Assembly: GCF_014695775.1 (NCBI RefSeq)
Contig: NZ_JACJOX010000049.1
Coordinates: 62,001-126,000 of the forward strand
Source of the DNA: Leptolyngbya sp. FACHB-60
GTDB taxonomy: Bacteria; Cyanobacteriota; Cyanobacteriia; Phormidesmidales; Phormidesmidaceae
Reading direction: 5' to 3'
DNA: 64,000 nucleotides
The translations under genes and the position numbers were made by a program. The notes below the pieces were generated by a model. It did not search any database, was not told where the DNA came from, and saw only the letters and a list, made by a program, of their open reading frames with translations. This document shows, piece after piece, positions 44,086 to 49,743 of the stretch; the stretch's first letter is position 1, and each line of letters starts with the position of its first letter.

Positions 44086-46257
44086 TTAAAGTGAGGTTGG
44101 CTTTGACTCAGTTGCACCCGACCTACCTGGTGCAGGGAGCTGGGCAAAGTGGTCTAGCAACTCGCGGTGCAAGAAGCGATAGCGACCGCCGACCCGTTGC
44201 AGCAGCCGACGCTCAACACAGTAGTTGAGGAACCGGGCCAGGTTGCGCGGGGCAACGCTGCTCTGCCAGAGCACAAACCGTAGGCAAACATGGTCAACGC
44301 AGGCTATCCCTCCACCTGCCCCAAGTCCAAAGAACATCGCGCCAAAAATACCTAGCACTAAAGCTTGGGGAAACACTTCCCTAAGAGAATTGACTATCAC
44401 TCCCATGCTTTCTCCCTTGCCAATGCCTTGAACCACAATGTTAGGCAGTTCTGTTATCCCAAATACCAAGATGACACCAAGGGGATAGCTTAAGAGAGTT
44501 GTCCACCCAAAGCTTTGAAGCGAGTTCCAGATGCCTTGGTTTGGGCGCGATCGCAGTTGTAGGTCTTGCTTTAGCCCAACAATCAGTCCGACAATCAGCC
44601 CACTAATCAGTCCGACAATCAGCCCACTAATCAGCCCACCAATCAGGCCACTAATCAGGCTACTAATCAGCCCGCTAATTAGGCCATTAACCAGCCCGCC
44701 AATTAGCCCGAAAGTTAGCCCGATAATCAGCCCACTGATCACCCACCCTCTCACCGTGTTTAAAATTTCTCGTCGCACATCGTGCGACATCGCAATTCTA
44801 AACGCTTCAACAGGTTTAATATCATCCAGCCCAACAATCAGTCCGATTATCGGCCCGCTAATTAGTCCGACAATCAGCCCACTAATCAGCCCGAAAGTTG
44901 GCCCAACAGCCAGCCCGCCAATCAGTCCGAAAGTTGGCCCAACAGTCAGCCCAACAATCAGCCCGCCAATCAGCCCACCAATCAGTTGATATCGTCGGCG
45001 TGATTGCTTTGTCTCTAACCACCTTGGCTGAATCTGCTCAATGAGAATTTCTACCGTATTGGTTTGCTGCAATTGTCGCGCTAGCCAAGCCAGTGTCCGT
45101 TCGGTTTGTCGCCAGTCTGGTTCTAGCTCTGGTGTTTTATAAGCCCAGCTTCGTTTTTCAACAGCATTTCGGCGATCGCTCTCTCGCACTTCTGGTAACA
45201 ATTGGCGATCAATGTACTGATTCAGCAATTCTGCCTTGGTGCGAAACGAACGCTGAGAGTCGTATACGTTAGCCGCTAGGGTGACAAACAGCGGAATTCT
45301 CAGCAGCCCCGGCTCGCCCTCAGTCGTTGGTTCCAAAAGGGTTTGCAGCGTAGGGCTAGCCTCAATCACCGACCACAGCGGCGACTGTTGCATCTCCAAA
45401 TAGGTTTGAATTTGCTCGTTTGACAGGGGTTCCAAACAGATGGCCCCATTCATCGTGTTGAGTTTAATGTTGGCTTGAGCAAATTCCTTCACCCGGCAAC
45501 AAACCACCAGCTTTGGATACTGCCGCGCAAACTCGTTTAGCTTTTGTGTACATTTCTGCTGCCGGTCAAACCCTAGCTCATCCAAACCATCCAGCAGCGG
45601 CAGCAACACCTGCTGATCGAGCCACTGCTCATAGAGTTTAGCTTTGCGGTTGCCGCCGTGCTGCTCATATAGCTGCTCAATTAGCCAGTCGCGAATGCTC
45701 TGGTTATCTTTGCGCCAGGTCGAGAGTTCAAATAAAACGGGGATTACGGTTTTTGGCTTGGCCAGTGCGCCCAAGACCAGCTGCTCGGCCAAGCTCAGCA
45801 GGGCGGTAGTTTTGCCTGCCCCTGGCGTGCCTAAAATAAGCAGCTTGCCAGCAATGTCGTCGCGGCCAAAAGTTTCAATTAGCAGCTGGCACGGGTCAAG
45901 GCTACCCTGGTCTTTTCCTTGTACCTGTAAAGTCCGTTCAGTTTCTAGCGGAGATCGCCCCACCCAACCCAACTGCTCTTGCAGCCCAACTGCCATTAGC
46001 TGGCGCTCTCTGCCCAAGGTGTCGATCAACCGTTTGCGAATTTCTGGGAGCTGTTTTTGCTCCAGCAGCCGCGTTGCCCAATCCCAATCCGCTGTAGAGG
46101 AAATAGTCTGACCAGATAACCGCACGATTGTATTGTTGATCGTGACTTGGTTGTCGTGGCTATTTTGAAAGCTAACCGCATCCCGCTCAGCCTGAGTAAG
46201 TTGGACTTGGCTATCTTCGATTTGGCTGCCGTCAACGCGCTGCTCTTGCGATGTCAT
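44086..46257 (-). CDS. NACHT NTPase with C-terminal Gly-Leu-Ile membrane-repeat arrays (NLR-like)
   Basis: 723 residues. Residues 11-50 are a Gln/Asn-rich tail with DSQVQLTQAERDAVSFQ. The NACHT/STAND ATPase core follows: Walker A GTPGAGKT (143-150), Walker B LLPLLDGLDEL (218-228), sensor segment VVCCRVKEF (~251-259), then helical and winged-helix regions. From ~421 to 478 and 504 to 562 the chain is a run of four-residue units (GLIG, GLIS, GLIV, GLTV), glycine-zipper-like membrane helices. More hydrophobic segments follow (~580-660), then a basic helical end RFLNYCVERRLLQRVGGRYR and FLHRELLDHFAQLP. Bacterial NACHT proteins are known anti-phage NLR relatives; that role is inferred. Confidence 0.8.
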   Translation of the reverse strand: MTSQEQRVDGSQIEDSQVQLTQAERDAVSFQNSHDNQVTINNTIVRLSGQTISSTADWDWATRLLEQKQLPEIRKRLIDTLGRERQLMAVGLQEQLGWVGRSPLETERTLQVQGKDQGSLDPCQLLIETFGRDDIAGKLLILGTPGAGKTTALLSLAEQLVLGALAKPKTVIPVLFELSTWRKDNQSIRDWLIEQLYEQHGGNRKAKLYEQWLDQQVLLPLLDGLDELGFDRQQKCTQKLNEFARQYPKLVVCCRVKEFAQANIKLNTMNGAICLEPLSNEQIQTYLEMQQSPLWSVIEASPTLQTLLEPTTEGEPGLLRIPLFVTLAANVYDSQRSFRTKAELLNQYIDRQLLPEVRESDRRNAVEKRSWAYKTPELEPDWRQTERTLAWLARQLQQTNTVEILIEQIQPRWLETKQSRRRYQLIGGLIGGLIVGLTVGPTFGLIGGLAVGPTFGLISGLIVGLISGPIIGLIVGLDDIKPVEAFRIAMSHDVRREILNTVRGWVISGLIIGLTFGLIGGLVNGLISGLISSLISGLIGGLISGLIVGLISGLIVGLIVGLKQDLQLRSRPNQGIWNSLQSFGWTTLLSYPLGVILVFGITELPNIVVQGIGKGESMGVIVNSLREVFPQALVLGIFGAMFFGLGAGGGIACVDHVCLRFVLWQSSVAPRNLARFLNYCVERRLLQRVGGRYRFLHRELLDHFAQLPAPGRSGATESKPTSL
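44573..44990 (-). repeat. 12-bp codon-phased tandem repeats encoding GLIx membrane repeats
   Basis: Two blocks (about 44573-44748 and 44826-44990) consist of degenerate 12-base units, on the + strand CCCACTAATCAG / CCGACAATCAG-like. Each encodes four residues on the minus strand (L-I-S/G/V-G). The intervening 78 bases (HDVRREILNTVRGW region) are not repetitive. Confidence 0.85.
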
Positions 46258-46308: not shown

Positions 46309-46773
46309 TTAAACACCAAAAAATGCTGCTGCTACCCCAACCCAAGGCGCGACCGTTCTAAAGATTTCTGCGCCGGTTTGCCACAGGCTTTTGCCAGCTT
46401 CGGTGGTTTCTTCCAAGGTTTTAAGAGTTTCGCTCACCTGCTTCAGGTTTTGCCCCACCAGCTCTTTACTCGGTTTTTCCTTCGCGGCTTCCCGCTTTGC
46501 CGGACGCAGATAGTCGAGCAATTCTTCTTGCAAAGCCGGGTCAATTGCTGCCCCTTTAACCGCTGTTTCTAACTGCTCCACCAATGTCACCACTTCCGCA
46601 CCAGTAATACCCTGCTGCTGGGTTTGCAGGTCGCCCGTTTGGTTTTGCTGTTGGTCGCGACCCGCCTGACCCATCTGCACCATGCCCCCATTTAGGGTCA
46701 CGTTGCTGAGGCTTTGCGACTGGTCGGGCTTGCCAGACTTAGCGGGCTCAGGCGGAGGCTGCTTTCTAAACAT
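46309..46773 (-). CDS. Small partner protein of the NACHT gene with shared N-terminal motif and C-terminal hydrophobic tail
   Basis: 154 residues from ATG 46773; 51 bases upstream of the NACHT gene on the same strand. Residues 21-50 (SLSNVTLNGGMVQMGQAGRD, then QQQNQTGDLQ) are Gly/Asn/Gln-rich and share VQ-x-x-QA-x-RD with NACHT residues 18-26. A helical region (~58-130, VVTLVEQLETAVKGAAIDPA, VGQNLKQVSETLKTLEETTE) is followed by a hydrophobic end VAPWVGVAAAFFGV. I recall similar helical tails in cyanobacterial STAND-linked proteins but no name. Adaptor or effector of the NACHT protein is an inference. Confidence 0.65.
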   Translation of the reverse strand: MFRKQPPPEPAKSGKPDQSQSLSNVTLNGGMVQMGQAGRDQQQNQTGDLQTQQQGITGAEVVTLVEQLETAVKGAAIDPALQEELLDYLRPAKREAAKEKPSKELVGQNLKQVSETLKTLEETTEAGKSLWQTGAEIFRTVAPWVGVAAAFFGV

Positions 46774-47106
46774 GATGTTAATTGCGAATTTATTTCGTCC
46801 ATCATATTCGACCACTCTGGCAGAGGCCAAAGAACACACGCAGCGCCCCCACAAAATAGAGACGTTCAGGTCAGCTCGCGGATGAGTCCGCTAGATCCTC
46901 AGTCAGCTGTCCTTTTTGTGAACCCAATTTCGTGAATGGCGAACCCAGCTTCGTCGTCGGTGAGGCCAGCTCCATAGGGGAGAGGCTAGCTTCATGGTGA
47001 GCGAAGCCAGTTTCGTGAATGATGAACCCAGTTTCGTGGGTGGTGAACCCAACCTCACCAGTCGTGGGGTTGGGTCCGCTGTCGAGGTACCCAGCCCTAG
47101 CGCGAG
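46774..47106. repeat. Spacer with seven-unit 21-bp tandem repeat (46918-47063)
   Basis: Units start at 46918, 46939, 46960, 46981 (20 bases), 47001, 47022 and 47043, consensus near GTGAACCCAGTTTCGTGAATG. The phase is maintained, so the minus strand reads as a heptapeptide repeat (HETGFII-like). No CRISPR geometry: units abut without spacers. The remaining part must carry the promoter for the NACHT operon. Confidence 0.85.
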
Positions 47107-48368: not shown

Positions 48369-49007
48369 CTAGGTGCCCGGTCGCGACTCTAGCTCCTCGG
48401 GCAAATGGGAGCGATCGCCGTGTTTGGCCAGCATCGGCCCATGTTGGTCGAACCGGATCAGACTAAGCGAAGCGACGGGCAGCTCAATGCGATCGCGGTA
48501 CCGACCGCTATCGATACCCAAAAGATTACAGAGCACCAGTCGAATCGTGGTTTTGTGCGACACAATCAGCACATTGCCGGCACTGTGGTTGGCCTCAATC
48601 TCGGCCATCACTAGGGCGGCACGGCTGGCCACCTGTACGCCCGTTTCGCCTCCTGTGGGCGGGTTCCAGGCGGGTTCGGCGAGCCAGCGCATGTAGTCTT
48701 GGGTGTACTCTGCCTGCACCTCGTCGTGGGTCTTGCCCTCCCACTCGCCAAAGAACATCTCCTTCAGCCCGTCGCGCAGCTGCATGGTCTGGCCCGTGGC
48801 CTCACAAAAAGGCGTGGCAGTTGCCACCGTACGCCGCAGCGGGCTGGCATATACCGCCTGCCAGTCTAGGCGCTGGTATTTGTCAGCAAAGGCCTGGGCC
48901 ATCGCGGCACCTGAGGCGGTCAGCTCTGGGTTAGATAAGCCGCAGTAGGTGTCGCTCTGGCTCGATTCGGTTTCGCCGTGGCGGAGCAAGTAGAGGTTGA
49001 GAGTCAT
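48369..49007 (-). CDS. Histidine phosphatase (phosphoglycerate-mutase-like), copy 1
   Basis: 212 residues. RHG motif LYLLRHGETESSQSDTYCG with the phosphohistidine; second His in VSHKTTIRLVLCN; Glu/Arg pocket SPLRRTVATATPF and FGEWEGKTHDE. Tandem paralog of the next gene (about 60% identical by eye, same ending ELESRPGT/ELETRPGT). Sugar-phosphate or phosphoglycerate phosphatase activity is possible; the glycogen-acetate setting suggests a glycolytic-intermediate role. Confidence 0.85.
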   Translation of the reverse strand: MTLNLYLLRHGETESSQSDTYCGLSNPELTASGAAMAQAFADKYQRLDWQAVYASPLRRTVATATPFCEATGQTMQLRDGLKEMFFGEWEGKTHDEVQAEYTQDYMRWLAEPAWNPPTGGETGVQVASRAALVMAEIEANHSAGNVLIVSHKTTIRLVLCNLLGIDSGRYRDRIELPVASLSLIRFDQHGPMLAKHGDRSHLPEELESRPGT

Positions 49008-49104: not shown

Positions 49105-49743
49105 CTAGGTGCCTGGTCTGGTCTCCAGCTCGGGGGGCAGGTGGGCGCGATCGCCGTGCTTCATCAACATGGGGCCGTTGTTACTAAATTGCACGTGGGT
49201 AACGGAGGCGACCGGCAGACTGATGCGATTGCGATAACGCCCCACATCCATCCCCATCAAGTTGCACAAAATAATTCGAATAGTGGCCTTGTGAGACACC
49301 ACCAGCACGTTACCTTCGGTAAAGTTTTCTTCAATTTCGGCCATTACTAGCGAGGCCCGGCTGGCGATTTGCACCGAGCTTTCGCCCCCAGTAGGCGGGT
49401 TCCAGGCCGGTTCGGTGAGCCAGTGCAGGTAGTCGTCGGCAAAGTGCTCGCGCACATACTCGGCGGTTAGCCCCTCCCACTGGCCGTAGTTAATTTCCTT
49501 TAGCCCATTGCGCAGCTGCACATTCACGCCCACGGCTTTGCTCAGGGGCATGGCCGTCGCGATCGTGCGCTTCATCGGGCTGGCAAAGATGGCCTGCCAG
49601 GGCATGGCCCGATACTGGGCCGCGAAGGCATCGGCCATGGCCATGCCTTCGGGGGTGAGCTCGGGGTCTAGCTCGCCACAGAAGCCGCCAGTTTGACTAA
49701 ACTCGGTTTCGCCGTGGCGCAGGAGGTAGAGGTTGAGGGGCAT
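49105..49743 (-). CDS. Histidine phosphatase (phosphoglycerate-mutase-like), copy 2
   Basis: 212 residues. LYLLRHGETEFSQTGGFCGE, SPMKRTIATAMPLSKAVG, YGQWEGLTAEYV and VSHKATIRIILCNLMG are the same motifs as in copy 1. Direct tandem duplicate, 97 bases apart on the same strand. It is separated from glgP by a repeat-rich spacer. Confidence 0.85.
   Translation of the reverse strand: MPLNLYLLRHGETEFSQTGGFCGELDPELTPEGMAMADAFAAQYRAMPWQAIFASPMKRTIATAMPLSKAVGVNVQLRNGLKEINYGQWEGLTAEYVREHFADDYLHWLTEPAWNPPTGGESSVQIASRASLVMAEIEENFTEGNVLVVSHKATIRIILCNLMGMDVGRYRNRISLPVASVTHVQFSNNGPMLMKHGDRAHLPPELETRPGT

Follow-up and report, generated by a model that had tools for sequence, protein, structure and literature searches.

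The 723-residue protein encoded at positions 44086..46257 (minus strand, ATG start) is a NACHT NTPase with an inserted membrane domain, and the evidence tips slightly toward its acting as the receptor in an NLR-like, membrane-anchored signaling pair encoded by two genes. Positions refer to the window, i.e., the entire 64,000-nt stretch analyzed, which comes from Leptolyngbya sp. FACHB-60 (contig NZ_JACJOX010000049.1, positions 62,001-126,000); all features of the two genes described below are on the minus strand. The second gene lies directly upstream, and both proteins start with a related Q/N-rich motif, "QxQ...VQ..QAGRD".

NACHT module and its membrane insert

The NTP-binding domain occupies residues 137-287 (45397..45849), as judged from the alignment and from a match to the Pfam NACHT family (PF05729) at residues 140-287 (E=1.7e-8; 34.9 bits versus a cut-off of 26.7). 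The Walker A motif GTPGAGKT (residues 143-150; 45808-45831) and the Walker B motif around LLPLLDGLDEL (residues 218-228; 45574-45606) are both intact, in agreement with the first-pass annotation, which described a NACHT, NLR-like protein. Foldseek searches with the AF2 model show NLRC4, NOD2, and NLRP3 as the top matches (E values from 3e-6 to 1e-4), and NLRC4 is also matched by sequence profile (E=6e-4). A Pfam search of all 723 residues shows no enzymatic effector domain. Identity with the antiphage protein EruA (NCBIfam NF058535) was considered and rejected, the score being 28.3 bits against an equivalog cut-off of 1000.

The N-terminal Q/N-rich motif SQEQRVDGSQIEDSQVQLTQAERDAVSFQNSHDNQVTINNTIV (residues 3-45; 46123..46251) is predicted to be disordered, with pLDDT values below 50 for residues 1 to 53 of the AF2 model. 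Orthologues aligned over the full length share 48-78% identity and keep the entire architecture. In this alignment, the Q/N-rich motif is followed by the NACHT domain, the segment 'LAWLARQLQ...EILIEQIQP.WL', array 1, the loop 'DDI.PVEAFKISMS..VRREIL', array 2, the loop KQDLQLRSRPNQGIWNSLQS, a non-repetitive membrane hairpin, and the C terminus FLNYCVERRLLQRVGGRYRFLHRELLDHFA.

The insert lies between the NACHT/HD1 region and the winged-helix-like C terminus and is predicted to consist of six membrane helices, contributed by the two arrays and a third hairpin. Repeats, AF2, and hydropathy delimit hairpin 1 (GLIx array 1, residues 417-475; 44833..45009) and hairpin 2 (GLIx array 2, residues 492-562; 44572..44784), which flank a conserved cytosolic loop recognized in the alignment (residues 476-491, DDIKPVEAFRIAMSHD region; 44785..44832). 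The non-repetitive hairpin 3 (residues 574-647; 44317..44538), based on the alignment and AF2, is preceded by a conserved RPNQGIWNS loop. AF2 (27 family members; mean pLDDT 75.9) predicts helical hairpins at 417-446/452-475, 492-528/531-562, and 574-614/618-647, as well as a helical C terminus. The mean number of Lys and Arg residues is 2.1-3.9 in the predicted cytosolic loops versus 0.2-0.7 in the predicted outside loops. The predicted topology is kept in 27 relatives, including those without GLIx repeats. These hairpin predictions from AF2 and hydropathy support the earlier suggestion that the arrays insert into the membrane.

The C-terminal cytosolic segment (residues 650-708; 44134..44310), which contains FLNYCVERRLLQRVGGRYRFLHRELLDHFA, is probably the end of a winged-helix domain, according to a weak profile match and the AF2 model. 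Its motif resembles 'YSFSHLTFQEY', which closes the winged-helix domain in ordinary NACHT proteins of the same genome, and profile comparison places it best at that end (weak match, P=0.024; 2/60 shuffles score higher). This resemblance suggests, with moderate confidence, that the arrays are an insert inside the NACHT module and do not follow it as a replacement for the C-terminal sensor, as had been proposed. A C-terminal sensor domain is absent: the protein ends with the winged-helix-like motif and has no later Pfam domain. The arrays had also been described as the C-terminal half of the protein; they are real, but total only ~110 residues and are followed by ~150 non-repetitive residues that comprise one membrane hairpin and the conserved cytosolic C terminus.

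At the DNA level, Tandem Repeats Finder detects a 12-bp array with 14.6 copies at 44573-44746 and a 12/24/36-bp array at 44829-44986. Both are in frame, as the first-pass annotation had it, and are translated, respectively, into 13 GLIx units (residues 510-561) and 12 GLIx units (residues 429-476). Identical residues located four positions apart within the arrays use the same codon in 34/56 pairs, where codon usage in the remainder of the gene predicts 17.1 +/- 3.5; this excess is not due to chance (0/2000 simulations). Measured against the array's own codon pool, codon matching between neighboring units is not significant (frac 0.42), so that the homogeneity of codons stems from a single repeated unit rather than from very recent neighbor-to-neighbor copying.

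Between fixed anchors, the array 1 segment ranges from 54 to 100 residues and the array 2 segment from 49 to 118 residues in 27 family members. Taken modulo four, these lengths fall into a single class in 17/27 cases for array 1 (p about 1e-4) and in 20/27 cases for array 2 (p about 5e-7), while a control segment shows no preference (p=0.45). With each distinct length counted once, the bias persists for array 2 (p=0.012) and is weaker for array 1 (p=0.16); all these statistics ignore shared ancestry. Judging from the aligned sequences, the arrays change in length mostly by 4-residue steps, i.e., by growth or shrinkage by a 12-bp unit, and the idea of an expandable repeat stands.

GLIx arrays with differing units are present in most family members. 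The glycine content of the array segments varies among relatives from 0.06 to 0.35; L036 has 1 and 0 GLIxG in its two segments, and L042 has none in the second. Some relatives with almost no GLIx retain a minimum of one or two hydrophobic windows in each hairpin; the conserved feature is therefore membrane topology and not the glycine zipper. Conserved glycine repeats in membrane helices, which would mark a glycine-zipper pore former, are missing in some relatives. Arrays absent or broken in every orthologue had been named as fatal to the original proposal, and this is not what the orthologues show. A single one, in Cyanobacteria bacterium FACHB-471 (L046:6052-8321), looks frame-shifted: close to the array region it is split between two frames that overlap, as a frameshift driven by the repeats would produce, or else an error in the assembly.

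Partner gene and related receptors

The partner ORF (46309..46773; ATG at 46773, open from TTG at 46854) is separated from the NACHT gene by 51 bp and encodes a 154-aa four-helix bundle. Its N-terminal motif QSQSLSNVTLNGGMVQMGQAGRD (residues 18-40; 46654..46722) was recognized by alignment and profile search, and AF2 and hydropathy outline a helical domain (residues 58-145; 46339..46602) with a hydrophobic last helix. The AF2 model shows a disordered N terminus and four helices with pLDDT mostly >90, and the 15-residue hydropathy of the terminal helix is 1.71. Neither fold nor sequence searches show a significant match for the helical domain. The PADLOC candidate PDC-M14B matches the motif and the helical domain (E=5e-9), although this match covers only about 110/267 profile positions.

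The pairing is conserved in 12/13 close orthologues examined, the exception being L044, which has no recognizable upstream partner. The partner is found directly upstream (about -50 to +170 bp) in the window and in L011/L040, L012, L013, L014, L015, L041, L042, L043, L046, L047, L048, and L049, and the flanks beyond the pair differ in most of the paired loci. When the profile of the receptor N-terminal motif was run against 4,793 non-NACHT ORFs, the first 11 distinct matches were partner-family proteins (E values from 4e-7 to 0.18). These include the partner in the window, with a modest E=0.025.

Proteins with the partner domain are found in 33/292 genomes sampled across the phylum, many of the matches being weak, and are also paired with non-NACHT genes carrying the motif. 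The Leptolyngbya genome itself encodes the partner domain a second time, in a gene located upstream of a non-NACHT ORF (L130:3872-5708); that pair has a different common N-terminal motif, INQ..SGF..GG.QAA.GN.N. Upstream of the pair in the window, the segment 46871-47224 (minus strand) is repeat-rich, with a 21-bp unit at 47003-47051 and the pattern 'TTHETGF..HE', and similar 'HEDGF/HELSF' stretches precede the pair in L052 and L053. Two adjacent and similar 212-aa histidine-phosphatase-like ORFs at 48369-49007 and 49105-49743 (minus strand) are apparently a tandem duplication.

The combination of NACHT domain, membrane insert, and C-terminal motif recurs across cyanobacteria, in many copies in some genomes and on plasmids in the case of some members. 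Its N-terminal part varies and matches the neighboring gene. Matched motif pairs unrelated to the one in the window are found in L051 and L060, whose neighbors are CHAT proteases that carry the motif C-terminally, in L144 and L145, whose neighbors are pentapeptide proteins (score 93 each), and in L070 and L081. The motif is located at the C terminus of the partner in L051, L060, L070, and L145. In L142, the NACHT-membrane protein is fused to CHAT (E=6e-23) and adjoins a Trypco2 gene, and in L082, L087, and L088 it is fused to a Ser/Thr kinase (E about 1e-31). The L081 cluster (L081:4560-12191) consists of three tandem NACHT-membrane ORFs, one of them truncated, and two upstream genes, for a 421-aa protein and for CHAT fused to the partner's domain. 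A GQxGQAGRD-type motif is common to most of these genes, and several receptors and effectors apparently share one motif. In a NACHT-membrane relative at L074:6488-9127, the C-terminal part is a signal-peptidase S26-like domain (Pfam E=8e-15). An N-terminal EAD1 domain in L017, L028, and L038, suggested by eye, has no Pfam match.

Proposed mechanism and alternative explanations

In the mechanism that we favor, the NACHT NTPase would be tethered to the cytosolic side of the membrane by the six-helix insert inside its winged-helix region; expandable GLIx repeats make up the first two of the insert's three hairpins. The NTPase switch would be released when a change is perceived at or via the insert, or by the NACHT and C-terminal parts in the cytosol. 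The released protein might then oligomerize and gather its N-terminal Q/N-rich motifs, which could template the like motif of the partner in an amyloid-like manner. Templating would cluster or activate the helical domain of the partner, which ends in a hydrophobic helix, and the outcome might be cell death or defense. In relatives, CHAT (caspase-like) proteases, pentapeptide proteins, or kinases would take the place of this partner on the same chassis. An immune function of the pair is a plausible reading of this arrangement. A more ambitious version, offered tentatively and regarded as somewhat improbable, treats the multi-helix insert as a built-in sensor: membrane damage or a change in potential would trip the NTPase, slippage would tune helix length and threshold, and the swappable N-terminal motif would pick the effector, in a widespread class found in cyanobacteria and also in Streptomyces.

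The pore-forming effector, the first choice of the first-pass annotation, now looks quite unlikely. It would have the NACHT ring oligomerize and the glycine-zipper hairpins form a pore that kills the infected cell. STAND proteins are known to oligomerize, the hairpins are strongly hydrophobic and Gly-rich, and an enzymatic domain is lacking in the NACHT protein, all of which this explanation would accommodate. However, conservation extends to the loops and the topology but not to the repeats or the glycine content, and the helices are predicted to span the membrane constitutively. Furthermore, the chassis is elsewhere fused to CHAT or a kinase or matched to separate CHAT partners, which indicates that effector function comes from outside the membrane domain. 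Since the repeats are dispensable and the effectors are located at the N terminus or in a motif-sharing neighbor, the pore was demoted as the main explanation. With the N terminus as the site where effectors plug in, the insert is more likely an anchor or sensor than a pore or effector. The arrays could also be mainly a product of replication slippage, in which case the membrane region would be a generic one and the number of repeats would have no function of its own. The 4-residue steps, seen in the array segments but not in the control, the codon homogeneity, and the retention of topology in orthologues with degenerate repeats are all in line with this reading. The presence of arrays with differing units in most family members nevertheless suggests a constraint that tolerates or favors them. 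Slippage as the whole account is very unlikely; for the repeats only, it is compatible with the receptor-partner mechanism.

A membrane-anchored STAND signaling or scaffold protein that serves ordinary physiology (stress, development, or membrane homeostasis) instead of immunity is an unlikely alternative in view of several features of the family. These are its patchy distribution (a close full-length or partial orthologue in 6/97 relatives), the many paralogues per genome, the plasmid-borne members, the match of the partner to the defense candidate PDC-M14B, and the coupling to CHAT proteases and Trypco2, which is typical of conflict systems (PMC10907252). It draws support from the genomic neighborhood: the pair in the window is flanked by metabolic genes, a near relative (L040) keeps the same position beside ackA, and no defense island was found around the orthologues in a PADLOC search of 94 neighboring proteins. 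That search gave scattered matches at E<=1e-10, mostly to families with generic or housekeeping relatives. The first-pass annotation had named single-copy core genes without defense context as evidence against its proposal; the orthologues are patchy and not core genes, but the search of their neighbors showed no defense island.

If the receptor-partner mechanism is true, a membrane domain wedged into the switch would show one receptor chassis re-plugged to many effectors, with exchangeable short motifs wiring it to proteases, kinases, or small helical proteins. It would also suggest a bacterial way of guarding membrane integrity. The system is testable, being a two-gene cassette with a predicted topology and natural repeat-number variants.

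Comparison with known systems

NACHT receptors and motif-coupled pairs are already known kinds. In the literature searched, which excluded the main primary papers on bNACHT and BASS, no description was found of NACHT proteins with a membrane insert or of the QAGRD motif in a NACHT/partner context. Likewise, no description was found in that literature of a variant that combines a mirror-oriented partner with an in-module membrane insert made of slippage-prone arrays.

The BASS pairs of Dyrka et al. 2020, as summarized in PMC7889193, PMC8086366, and PMC12261475, are the closest in layout. According to the passages on BASS in PMC7889193, the motif is at the N terminus of the NLR, next to a gene for a small helical-bundle or CHAT/TIR effector (BELL, CHAT, and TIR are among the effectors), and the pairs are reported mainly in actinobacteria and cyanobacteria. 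The pair in the window and its relatives share with them adjacent genes in a cyanobacterial host, a short Q/N/G-rich motif at the N terminus of a NACHT-type receptor that is matched in the neighbor, and a small helical bundle with a hydrophobic helix, or CHAT. This layout makes the N terminus look like the effector arm. In BASS effectors, however, the motif is C-terminal, whereas the partner in the window has an N-terminal motif and a C-terminal helical domain; the pair is therefore called BASS-like, not a BASS member. The six-helix insert is not mentioned in these summary descriptions of BASS.

Antiphage bNACHT proteins, such as bNACHT25, have an effector - NACHT - C-terminal sensor architecture (PMC12169576). 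The protein in the window has the same central, NLR-related NACHT module, but lacks the C-terminal sensor domain and has the module interrupted by the membrane insert. A plasmid-encoded protein of Streptomyces sp. NBC_00015 (WP_331740706.1) has, by eye, membrane helices in the same place, between LxxLARxL and a terminal GGTYQFRHVRLQERLA-like motif. It differs in lacking GLIx arrays and in having a WD40-like repeat region after the winged-helix-like motif. Most NLRs characterized so far are soluble and sense through a C-terminal domain. The animal proteins NLRC4, NOD2, and NLRP3, for all their structural similarity to the NACHT model, are soluble, use an LRR sensor, and carry CARD or PYD where the protein in the window has a short motif.
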